Positions 18,781 to 30,526 of a stretch of DNA of 36,265 bases are shown one piece after another. Under the pieces are notes generated by a model, which saw nothing but the letters and a program-made list of their open reading frames with translations, was not told the origin of the DNA and searched no databases. Within the stretch, counting starts at the first letter, position 1, and every line of letters starts with the position of its first letter. Position numbers and translations under genes: made by a program. This DNA is from an uncultured Clostridia bacterium. GTDB taxonomy: Bacteria; Bacillota; Clostridia; Christensenellales; Borkfalkiaceae. Location of the stretch: the NCBI GenBank assembly GCA_947629725.1, contig CANREU010000002.1:1-36265 (forward strand), read 5' to 3'.

Positions 18781-19168
18781 TGGTGGACCTGCGCAGAGTT
18801 GAACTGCGGTCTTACAAGGTTCATCCGTGGACACTACACGCTTAGTCCGTGGTCGATCTCGCCGTAGCAAAGTCCGCGGACAAACTTTGATACGGCATGC
18901 TTCCGAAATTCATCGCGGGGAGGGGGTAGCCAGCCGCCCCGCGACGTTCCCTACTCAATGACGCCCAAACCCCGACCGTAGGCCTTCGGGGCAGGACGGA
19001 GCTTAACGCTGTTAAGCCGCAAGTGCTACGCGGCGAGCCGAAGCCCGACGAGCAGCGGTAGAACGTCTGCTTTTATTATCAGCATTTGAATTTTTTCCGT
19101 TTTTACGGAGCCGAGCCTCCGGCGTGCGTCCGACGAAATCCGCTTGCAATCGAATCCGTAACAGGCCC
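18781..19168 (-). ncRNA. ssrA: tmRNA
   Basis: 5' GGGCCTGTTACGGATTCGATTGCAAG and 3' CGCAGTTCAACTCTGCGCAGGTCCACCA; acceptor pairing GGGCCUG/CAGGUCC; tag ORF ending VALAA-TAA with the stop in hairpin GCTTAAC-AGC-GTTAAGC. Confidence 0.95.
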
Positions 19169-26019: not shown

Positions 26020-26032
26020 TAGGAAAAGGAAG

Positions 26033-26063
26033 AGCGCCGCGGCAATTGCCGCGGCGCTTTTTT
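26033..26063 (+). terminator. rpmB terminator
   Basis: AGCGCCGCGGCAATTGCCGCGGCGCTTTTTTG. Confidence 0.85.
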
Positions 26064-26086
26064 GCTGCTTACTCCTTTGTCCACGG
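26035..26086. repeat. Direct repeat copy A (terminator plus C-terminal coding remnant)
   Basis: CGCCGCGGCAATTGCCGCGGCGCTTTTTTGCTGCTTACTCCTTTGTCCACGG; matches 28117-28167 with a single T indel. Confidence 0.9.
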
Positions 26087-27746: not shown

Positions 27747-27939
27747 ATGTTACCTCCGAAAAAAGTTTTTTCGCAGTAAAAAGGACACAAAAAAGTGTGC
27801 CTTCAACCGAAGACACACTGCGTTGGTATCTCCGATTGTTGTCACACAAACTTCCAACCACTTATTGAGTATAGGAAATAAAGAGATACGCAAAGCCCAG
27901 TTTGCGTCCCTACTCAATAAGCTATACAGTTTGTGTGAC
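27747..27939 (-). ncRNA. Structured 5' leader/attenuator RNA, copy 1
   Basis: P1 GUCACACAAACU/AGUUUGUGUGAC, P2 CUUAUUGAGUA/UACUCAAUAAG, P3 ACGCAAA/UUUGCGU, pseudoknot GUAUCUC/GAGAUAC, terminator GUGUGUCUUC-GGUU-GAAGGCACAC-U6. Confidence 0.75.
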
Positions 27940-27945
27940 GAGACA

Positions 27946-27974
27946 AGTATACCACACTACAAAGAAAATTACAA
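27946..27974 (-). promoter_or_regulatory. Promoter of leader RNA copy 1
   Basis: Minus strand TTGTAA-17-TATACT; predicted +1 at the first base of P1. Confidence 0.65.
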
Positions 27975-28116
27975 GTCTTTTTCAAAATTATTCGAAAACC
28001 GTTGTTTCTCTCTCCTCTACCGCCCGCTATCCGTTCTCTCCACGCTGTTCCTCTCCCTACCTCCCTCCTCGCTGTCGGGGAGGGGGGGTAGGGAGAGGGG
28101 TCGCCTTTCCCAATAA

Positions 28117-28167
28117 CGCCGCGGCAATTGCCGCGGCGCTTTTTGCTGCTTACTCCTTTGTCCACGG
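28117..28167. repeat. Direct repeat copy B
   Basis: Same terminator and PWTKE-stop coding end as 26035-26086. Confidence 0.9.
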
Positions 28168-30297
28168 CTCTGCGAAACCGTCTATGCCGTAGCGCCACCA
28201 ATTGGCGCTCTGCCCCCACTGCTCCTCCGAAGGAGCCTCTGCGGAGAAGTAGGAAACGGTTGCACTCTTGAGCGCGCTGCTTCCCCCGCTGCCGTCGTTG
28301 AGCGTCGCCCAAGTCTCTTTATCGCCCTCGTAGAAGAAGGTCTTCAAAGACGAGGAAAACGCGTGGGCGAAATAGGTGACATCCTTCCCTATCACGACCT
28401 GCGTCAAATTCTCGCAGTTCATGAACGCGTCCTGTCCCACATTCTTCACGCCCTTGCCGAGCACGACCGCCTTGATGGGCGCGCCGTTGAAGGCGCTCAT
28501 CCCGACCTTTTCGATCCCCTCGATCACGATCGTTTCGGGCAAGGGAGAACCGTCGCCGAGATAGAGCGCGGCGGGCGTCTCGCGGAGCGGAGTTTTGAAA
28601 ATGTTCGCATAGCTGTTGCCGAATTCGATCGCCGCCCATTCGGAGACCGTCCCCGCATAATCGACGCGTTCGAGCGAACTGCTCCCCATGAACGCAAAGA
28701 ATGCGCCTGTACCGATCGTCTTCACGCTCTTCGGGATCGAGATCCTCGAAAGCGCGCTGCAGGAATAGAAGGCTCCCGAGCCGATCTCCTCCGTACCCTC
28801 GGCGATCGCGACTTCGGAGAGCGAGCTGCTGTACCCGAAGCAATATTGCCCGAGCGCGGTGACGCCCGAAGGGACCGTCACCTTCTCGAGCGTGCTCTCG
28901 TAAAAGGCGTATGCGCCGACCGCATAGGGCTTCCCGTCGTGCCCGCCGGGAAGCGTAAGCTGCGTTTCCTCCCCGAAATAGGCGTGCAGAGCGTCCGTAT
29001 CGGTGCGCCACACGAAGCCGTCCTTGTCGGGGTCGGTCACGACGCTCTTCTCGGAGAGCGACTTATGGATCACGGTCGTCTCCGCAAGCCCGAAGTCGTC
29101 CTCCAGATTGACGAACTCGATCTGCGAGAGGTTGTATATCTCCGCGATCCGGTTGCTGTCTCGGAAAGTACTTTCGATAGAGCCGCTCGCAATGCTTTCG
29201 ACGCTCGCGGGGATCGTAACGGAGGTGATGAAGGGATGCTCCCAAAAATAGGTGTATCCGTATCCGATCTTCTTTACGCCGTCGGCGATCACGACCCGCC
29301 CTTTGAGATACTTCGGCACATACAAGAGCTCCGTCTTATCCTTATTATAGAGAATGCCGCCCTCGGTGGAATAGGTCGCATTTTCCGCGCTCACCTCGAT
29401 GGATTCAAGCCCTGCGGGGAAGGTGTCCGACGTCACTTCCTGCGAGAACGCCTTGCCGAGGGAGAGCTCCCGCACGGCGTCCGAATCGTAGAAAGTATTC
29501 TTCGGAAGGCTCTCCACCCCGTCGCCGAATTCCGCCCGCTCGAGCGCGGGGCAGTAGCGCAAGAACTCGGTTTCAAAGTTTTCCGCGCCCTCGATCCGCA
29601 CATATTTGAGGGACGTGCAGCCGTAGAACGGATACTTCCCCACCGTTTTGAGATACCCAAGCTCCGCGCTCTCAAGCGCCGTGCATTCGCGGAGGGCGCC
29701 CTTCTGCAAATTTTCAAGATGTTCGAGGTTGATCTTCGTGAGTGCCGAGCAGCCGTAGAAGCAATACTCGCCCAACTCCTTCACCGACTCGGGGAGGAAT
29801 ACGGCGGTGAGCGTCTCGTCGCCCTCCGCCACGTAAAATGCCTGTTCGCCGACCGAGACGACGGGCTTTCCGCTGTATTCGGCGGGGATGACGAGATTGG
29901 TCCTGTCCGTCTCGCTCTCGCCCCAGCCGACCACGGAATACCCCGTCACCGTCTCGCCGTCCTCGCCGAGCACTTCTTCGTATTGCAACTTCGACGACGG
30001 AAGCGTGTAGCCGCAGACCGTGCAGGTCGTCCCCTCGAAGGTGTGGTTTTCGTGCACGTGGTTGCAGGTGCCGCAGACGCCGTTCACGTAATCGTGCGCC
30101 GCCTTGCCGCTCACCGCGTCCTCATGCCCGCAGGTCGACGCGTGCCAGTGGGAGGCGTCGTCCGAGCTCCAAGTTTCCGAATAGGAGTGCTCGTGCGGCG
30201 GGGGCGAGGGCTCCTTCTTTTTGCAGGCGGCGATCCCGAAGACTGCCGCCGTTGCCGCCGAGAACGCGAGCAGTCCGAGTACCAAGTTGTGCTTCAT
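28150..30297 (-). CDS. BspA-like leucine-rich repeat (LRR_5) surface lipoprotein
   Basis: Lipobox GIAACKKK; many LRR_5-type repeats (FYGCSALTKINL, GAFYSCSALSRISIPKSVKTIGTGAF). Confidence 0.88.
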   Translation of the reverse strand: MKHNLVLGLLAFSAATAAVFGIAACKKKEPSPPPHEHSYSETWSSDDASHWHASTCGHEDAVSGKAAHDYVNGVCGTCNHVHENHTFEGTTCTVCGYTLPSSKLQYEEVLGEDGETVTGYSVVGWGESETDRTNLVIPAEYSGKPVVSVGEQAFYVAEGDETLTAVFLPESVKELGEYCFYGCSALTKINLEHLENLQKGALRECTALESAELGYLKTVGKYPFYGCTSLKYVRIEGAENFETEFLRYCPALERAEFGDGVESLPKNTFYDSDAVRELSLGKAFSQEVTSDTFPAGLESIEVSAENATYSTEGGILYNKDKTELLYVPKYLKGRVVIADGVKKIGYGYTYFWEHPFITSVTIPASVESIASGSIESTFRDSNRIAEIYNLSQIEFVNLEDDFGLAETTVIHKSLSEKSVVTDPDKDGFVWRTDTDALHAYFGEETQLTLPGGHDGKPYAVGAYAFYESTLEKVTVPSGVTALGQYCFGYSSSLSEVAIAEGTEEIGSGAFYSCSALSRISIPKSVKTIGTGAFFAFMGSSSLERVDYAGTVSEWAAIEFGNSYANIFKTPLRETPAALYLGDGSPLPETIVIEGIEKVGMSAFNGAPIKAVVLGKGVKNVGQDAFMNCENLTQVVIGKDVTYFAHAFSSSLKTFFYEGDKETWATLNDGSGGSSALKSATVSYFSAEAPSEEQWGQSANWWRYGIDGFAEPWTKE

Positions 30298-30491
30298 GTG
30301 TTACCTCCGAAAAAAATTTTTTCGCAGTAAAAAGGGCACAAAAAAAGTGTGCCTTCAACCGAAGACACACTGCGTTGGTATCTCCGATTGTTGTCACACA
30401 AGTTTTTCCGAATATTTTGGCATACGGGAAAAAGAGATACACAATGCCCTTGATTGTGTTCCCAATACGCCGAAATATAAACTTGTGTGAC
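30298..30491 (-). ncRNA. Structured 5' leader/attenuator RNA, copy 2
   Basis: P1 GUCACACAAGUUU/AAACUUGUGUGAC, P2 GGCGUAU(U)GGGA/UCCCGUAUGCC, P3 ACACAAU/AUUGUGU, same pseudoknot and terminator with U7. Confidence 0.75.
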
Positions 30492-30497
30492 GCAATC

Positions 30498-30526
30498 AGT
30501 ATATCACGCCGCGGGGAAAATTACAA
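30498..30526 (-). promoter_or_regulatory. Promoter of leader RNA copy 2
   Basis: Minus strand TTGTAA-17-TATACT. Confidence 0.65.

Follow-up and report, generated by a model that had tools for sequence, protein, structure and literature searches.

A large unnamed family of leader RNAs upstream of surface-protein genes in gut Clostridia: candidate orphan riboswitches with a predicted attenuator

Leader RNAs and genes at the locus

The window (the whole stretch of DNA that was analysed, 36,265 nucleotides from an uncultured Clostridia bacterium of the Borkfalkiaceae, contig CANREU010000002.1) carries two lipoprotein genes on the minus strand, each preceded by a copy of the same leader RNA. The features are listed in the direction of transcription; positions are those of the window.

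30498..30526, minus strand: copy 2 promoter (TTGTAA, 17 nt, TATACT)
30340..30491, minus strand: copy 2, entire leader; P1-P3 diverged from copy 1, linker and terminator identical
28150..30297, minus strand: gene 2, lipoprotein with BspA-type leucine-rich repeats (LRR_5)
27946..27974, minus strand: copy 1 promoter (TTGTAA, 17 nt, TATACT, the -10 box being extended by TG); predicted +1 at 27939
27928..27939, minus strand: P1 5' arm GUCACACAAACU (fold and P1 covariation)
27923..27927, minus strand: 5' bulge GUAUA (consensus gAAUA), unpaired and conserved
27907..27922, minus strand: P2 5' arm GCUUAUUGAGUAGGGA (fold and P2 swap test)
27889..27906, minus strand: P3 hairpin CGCAAA-CUGGGC-UUUGCG with a conserved GG in the loop
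27883..27889, minus strand: pseudoknot strand GUAUCUC, 3' bulge at the P3/P2 joint (swap test of inner region against linker)
27860..27876, minus strand: P2 3' arm (fold)
27841..27852, minus strand: P1 3' arm AGUUUGUGUGAC (fold)
27826..27838, minus strand: antiterminator 5' strand CAAUCGGAGAUAC, including the pseudoknot partner (swap test and shared linker nucleotides)
27826..27832, minus strand: pseudoknot partner GAGAUAC in the linker; covaries in diverged homologs
27817..27822, minus strand: CGCAGU before the terminator, complementary to ACUGCG
27804..27816, minus strand: antiterminator 3' strand GUGUCUUCGGUUG, that is, terminator 5' arm and loop (fold and swap test)
27789..27819, minus strand: intrinsic terminator AGUGUGUCUUC-GGUU-GAAGGCACACU and U tract (covariation)
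27772..27777, minus strand: ACUGCG past the terminator and ahead of the SD; could give the read-through RNA a second helix
26109..27746, minus strand: gene 1, lipoprotein with a List_Bact_rpt (InlB-type) repeat; SD GGAGG at 27757-27753

A sequence-only reading had placed the leader of copy 1 at 27939-27789 on the minus strand; the RNA was found there, and that description of its anatomy is correct in nearly all details. The copy 1 RNA folds with -62.7 kcal/mol, compared with a mean of -35.8 kcal/mol for shuffled sequences (z = -7.7), and none of 200 shuffles folded as well. P1 (GUCACACAAACU/AGUUUGUGUGAC) has the 12 bp given for it and P3, given as 7 bp, folds with 6-7 bp; P2 had been described as 11 bp and has to be corrected to 16 bp with one bulged nucleotide. 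The 3' bulge contains AUCUCU, and the proposed pseudoknot between GUAUCUC (27889-27883) and GAGAUAC (27832-27826) is exactly complementary, with support for the pairing. The GGUU-loop terminator was located at 27819-27794 (11 pairs, six U at the end), and 43 nt separate the U run from the ATG, as had been estimated. Transcription starting at the first base of P1 (27939) is plausible because the TATACT box at 27951-27946, with TG upstream of it, is seven bases ahead of this position. P1 and P2 are of similar length around the 5' bulge, which suggests that P1 folds back along P2; with this geometry, which is purely inferred, the short linker could reach the P2/P3 bulge.

The second copy that had been claimed is present at 30491-30340 (minus strand). 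Both copies fold alike, with P1, P2, P3, the GUAUCUC:GAGAUAC pseudoknot, an intrinsic terminator and an extended -10 promoter adjoining the start. The source genome carries four copies beyond these two; covariance models R2 and R1 (see below) counted five and six copies, respectively.

Competing pairings in the linker and terminator

The linker strand CAAUCGGAGAUAC pairs over 13 bp, wobbles included, with GUGUCUUCGGUUG in the 5' arm and loop of the terminator. When linker and terminator were folded alone, this antiterminator (-16.9 kcal/mol) and the terminator (-16.1 kcal/mol) were computed to be of similar energy; averaged over homologs, the terminator was favoured by about 2-4 kcal/mol, so the ON state would depend on the order of folding, a point against the switch proposed below. 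The final seven bases of CAAUCGGAGAUAC are GAGAUAC, the pseudoknot partner. Pseudoknot and antiterminator are therefore mutually exclusive, as are antiterminator and terminator, and three pairings compete. Among 117 homologs, the pseudoknot uses about 14 linker bases and the antiterminator about 13, with about nine common to both; at least four linker nucleotides are common to the two pairings in 115 of the 117 sequences.

A further pairing spans the terminator. GCAGGGC, directly ahead of the terminator, can pair with GCCCUGC, which follows it directly and lies before the SD, and at least six contiguous pairs across the terminator flanks were counted in 38 of 77 family leaders (shuffled mean 3.2). 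This pairing is type-specific, the window type being CGCAGU:ACUGCG. In the read-through RNA the antiterminator loop could thereby be closed into a classical H-type pseudoknot; this role is inferred.

Covariation

Loss of the claim would have followed from an absence of covarying homologs outside the source genome; many were found. In a MAFFT alignment of 44 diverse sequences, changes on both sides occurred in 19 of the 22 P1 and terminator pairs, and 95.6 % of the cells were paired, compared with 78.2 % after shuffling and 30-55 % after sliding. Double changes were found in all 12 P1 pairs among 69 family sequences.

Pairing was also assessed by a swap test, in which partners were exchanged between sequences (33 sequences from outside the family, 5000 permutations). 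Native pairings were stronger than swapped ones for P1 (-16.1 vs -9.9 kcal/mol), the pseudoknot (-16.2 vs -12.0 kcal/mol), the antiterminator (-14.5 vs -9.9 kcal/mol) and the terminator (-17.4 vs -10.0 kcal/mol), each with p = 0.0002; these p values are inexact because the permutations leave shared ancestry in. The P2 arms gave -13.6 kcal/mol for native and -4.7 kcal/mol for swapped partners, and nearly all pair types were seen at each outer position. As the limits of the P2 helix were taken from folds, the pair counts are biased in favour of the structure, and the swap test is affected less. In the main family type there is no covariation evidence for the pseudoknot or the antiterminator because the sequences hardly vary there. 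Individual variants are instructive as well and include L093 and L157, in which an extra A in the linker is matched by an extra U in the terminator loop, and L211 and L212, copies in the window's own genome, with CAAUUCGGGG:CCUCGGAUUG and CAAUGAGGGA:UCCUUCAUUG, respectively.

An antiterminator between CACAC of the P1 5' arm and GUGUG of the terminator had been proposed. It retains weak support: for P1 5' arm and terminator 5' arm, native and swapped partners of the main set gave -6.4 and -5.8 kcal/mol, respectively, and the diverged set yielded p = 0.05. As the main antiterminator it was rejected, the signal being small in comparison with the values given above for the linker antiterminator in the distant set.

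The same data bear on the possibility that the element acts as DNA, either as an operator whose P1 inverted repeat is bound by a repressor or as a MITE-like mobile repeat. The P1 arms do form a long inverted repeat adjoining the promoter, and the two window copies have flanks in common; however, P1 varies in sequence between copies of one genome with its pairing kept, all internal helices and the antiterminator covary, and the element's place between promoter and terminator is constant. The DNA-level explanation is disfavoured by the variation of P1 within one genome and is considered the most improbable of those weighed here. Chance hairpins are ruled out by the z-score of the fold and by the lack of matches in 348 other genomes of the phylum-wide sample.

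Comparison with known RNA families

A match to a known Rfam class would likewise have refuted the proposal, and no family matches the leader RNA. Scanning of the window and 19 distant loci against Rfam 15 (4227 models) at the gathering score returned only tmRNA and tRNA, and E-value scans of 18 family-member and 16 distant loci gave no plausible sub-threshold match on the motif. Known riboswitch, T-box, ribosomal and other Rfam classes were thus excluded by cmscan at both kinds of threshold. No description of the RNA was found in the open literature searched; an earlier description in subscription papers or in preprints outside the search is not excluded. The sole Rfam match within the window itself is a tmRNA gene (18781-19168, minus strand).

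The c-di-GMP-I and c-di-GMP-II riboswitches (RF01051 and RF01786) are alike in having many copies per genome, surface and adhesion genes of Clostridia under their control and a transcription termination platform, and GGGACGCAAA in copy 1 resembles the c-di-GMP-I core. The fold differs, however, cmscan gave no match, and the likeness of GGGACGCAAA is not conserved in homologs. No match to GGDEF was obtained in six motif-bearing genomes (G009, G042, G055, G085, G056 and G552), several of them near-complete; the near-complete carriers without GGDEF include G552, with 14 motif copies, and the window's own genome has one GGDEF. Because many carriers lack GGDEF domains, c-di-GMP is unlikely to be the general ligand.

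Pseudoknotted OFF riboswitches with terminator/antiterminator platforms are a general type. As in these, a strand common to pseudoknot and antiterminator decides between terminator and antiterminator; the leader RNA differs in its long 5'-terminal bulged hairpin, in a pseudoknot made of the 3' bulge and the linker after P1, and in the absence of any sequence or model match. T-box leaders share the 5' position, the choice between terminator and antiterminator and the occurrence in Firmicutes, but did not match by cmscan, and neither aminoacyl-tRNA synthetase nor amino-acid genes lie behind the leaders here. Ribosome-mediated leader-peptide attenuators similarly place alternative hairpins ahead of a terminator, whereas copy 1 is predicted to be transcribed from the first base of P1 and has no AUG between 27939 and 27789 that could open a leader peptide (homologs were not covered systematically).

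Distribution and subtypes

A DNA search gave matches in 46 of 201 Borkfalkiaceae genomes. Pattern scanning of named genomes yielded 77 stretches, at least four of them chance matches, nearly all from uncultured Clostridia, among them species of Candidatus Coproplasma and of Borkfalkia; from these named relatives the window was inferred to belong to Borkfalkiaceae. Two covariance models were built, R1 from 69 sequences and R2 from 44 diverse sequences. R1 detected the RNA in 153 of 301 genomes of the family and in 58 of 392 genomes of the class; R2 (E <= 1e-4) detected it in 98 of 384 class genomes, representing 55 of 219 genera. A phylum-wide sample comprised 348 further genomes, and R2 matched none of them at E <= 1e-3. 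The highest copy numbers per genome were 17, 16, 14, 11 and 11. A -10 promoter element precedes P1 in all 116 homologs checked, mostly at a spacing of 4-6 nt, with an extended TG in 94.

A short pattern matched 23 viral contigs, seven of which contain the full RNA, and the full RNA was also found in phage record MT835845. Viral copies (L341, L343, L346, L355, L356, L358, L337 and L360) include one in an unannotated human-faecal phage record, and several related phages have the RNA ahead of a gene for a protein of about 180-340 aa, the function of which is unknown. No plasmid copies were found by blastn with one distant copy as the query.

Complete copies also occur in tandem, about 200-300 nt apart (L321, L287, L324, L290, L311 and L294; contig C22 of G474); in L321, L287 and L324 each copy has its own promoter-like box and terminator, and the copies stand before one gene or none. 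A second subtype has the linker GGAGUUUGCGUUUU with its pseudoknot partner AAAACGCAAAUUCC in P3, and several members have a GCCAAACAA-type P1; it comprises L071, L072, L080 and L082 within the family and L327, L329 and L334-L336 in other families.

Downstream genes

The 64 downstream proteins in the family include 32 with LRR_5 (BspA-type) domains, five with zinc ribbons and three with List_Bact repeats, and the majority start with a lipoprotein signal. Among 43 downstream proteins from other families, LRR_5 occurs in 13 and a copper amine oxidase N-terminal domain in four; further types are GDSL lipases, proteins with RCC1 repeats, small proteins and a single AMP-binding enzyme. Overall, most downstream genes encode surface proteins, LRR_5 proteins foremost, zinc-ribbon proteins or small proteins. 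Surface proteins are thus the theme common to distant lineages, without a shared pathway. A signal for cell state or a second messenger fits this theme better than product feedback. The gene context points to no specific metabolite, and this counts against a small-molecule reading.

Proposed mechanism

The proposal of a new structured leader that attenuates transcription of a surface lipoprotein gene is supported at the level of sequence, both by the lack of an Rfam match and by the covarying homologs. Our main reading, to which we assign a probability of roughly 70 %, is that the leader belongs to a large unnamed family of cis-acting transcription attenuators, candidate orphan riboswitches, in which the pseudoknot frees the terminator. 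The pairings, their mutual exclusivity, the covariation, the adjacency of the promoter and the gene context were read from the DNA; ligand and RNA-level behaviour are inferred.

The transcript would begin directly with a long bulged hairpin made of P1, P2 and P3, and the 3' bulge at the P2/P3 joint would pair with the linker after P1 to give the pseudoknot. With the pseudoknot formed, the linker would be held, no antiterminator could arise, the terminator would fold and transcription would stop (OFF). Without it, the linker would pair with the nascent 5' arm and loop of the terminator and the surface-protein gene would be read (ON); the antiterminator is expected to form first in this case because its strands precede completion of the terminator 3' arm. 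The OFF polarity is itself inferred. The pseudoknot is probably stabilised by an unidentified ligand, and the presumed signal would most likely be a small molecule that binds to the P1-P3 domain.

Two features expected of a riboswitch are met, namely a conserved folded domain with compensatory changes across species and an expression platform with pairing that is either incompatible with the sensor fold or dependent on it. The leader works like a riboswitch, but membership cannot be claimed without a shown ligand.

The main rival keeps the same three-way switch and has it set by an RNA-binding protein on P1 or the P3 loop in place of a small molecule. The middle pairs of P1 (ACAA/UUGU) hardly vary in sequence even though they are base-paired; this could also reflect recognition by a protein and to that extent counts against a small molecule; the GG of the P3 loop is conserved too, many copies per genome would suit a global regulator, and the regulated genes have no metabolic pathway in common. 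Such a protein would, however, have to be as widespread as the RNA, which spans many families of the class and phages, and aptamers are the more usual setting for complex covarying helices with bulges and a pseudoknot. We regard a protein sensor as unlikely, though it cannot be dismissed.

Extended beyond the attenuator, the riboswitch interpretation becomes tentative, and taken jointly its parts fall slightly short of an even chance. It would hold that this is a new riboswitch class that responds to a global signal (a second messenger or a cell-state metabolite) and controls the surface proteome and small genes in many gut Clostridia, that it is also phage-borne and occurs in tandem, that its pseudoknot takes the antiterminator strand, and that some lineages use it to control stand-alone small RNAs that can pair with P1 of sister copies.

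The RNA is present in about a quarter of the sampled genomes of the class, in up to 17 copies per genome; new orphan riboswitch candidates seldom form classes this large. The surface proteins encoded behind it are ones that gut bacteria expose to host and phages, and the identity of the ligand would tell which cue determines the surface of many gut Clostridia that are uncultured. Where orphan riboswitches have been solved, the signal has often turned out to be one that was unknown or under-appreciated. The anatomy of the leader offers clear mutants for testing.

Stand-alone copies and a possible complementary small RNA

In three genomes of another family (f22), the RNA also occurs in stand-alone copies that lack a downstream gene and have only TTGTCGCCAAACAA and a second terminator after them (G352:C9:48315; G556:C88:82026, L332; G659:C33:6804 and 7113, L333 and L324). 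This 14-mer is complementary over 14-18 nt to the P1 3' arm and linker start of sister copies within these genomes, located at G659:C13:471, G352:C14:38022 and G556:C17:49507. It is possible that these loci produce a switch-controlled small RNA that acts on sister copies. As a general explanation, a trans-acting small RNA that pairs with P1 or the linker and alters the fold would draw on these loci; they are confined to a few genomes, though, and could be an offshoot, and the window's own genome contains no TTGTCGCCAAACAA. We consider it very improbable as the general mechanism.

Organisation of the two lipoprotein genes

The two lipoprotein genes share promoter, leader, start region and a 28-nt identical 3' stretch. 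Their terminator hairpins are 91-94 % identical, and the shared 3' regions lie at 26030-26086 and 28112-28167. As the coding parts differ (InlB-type and LRR_5) and the ends are shared, a cassette-like exchange of the middle is indicated.
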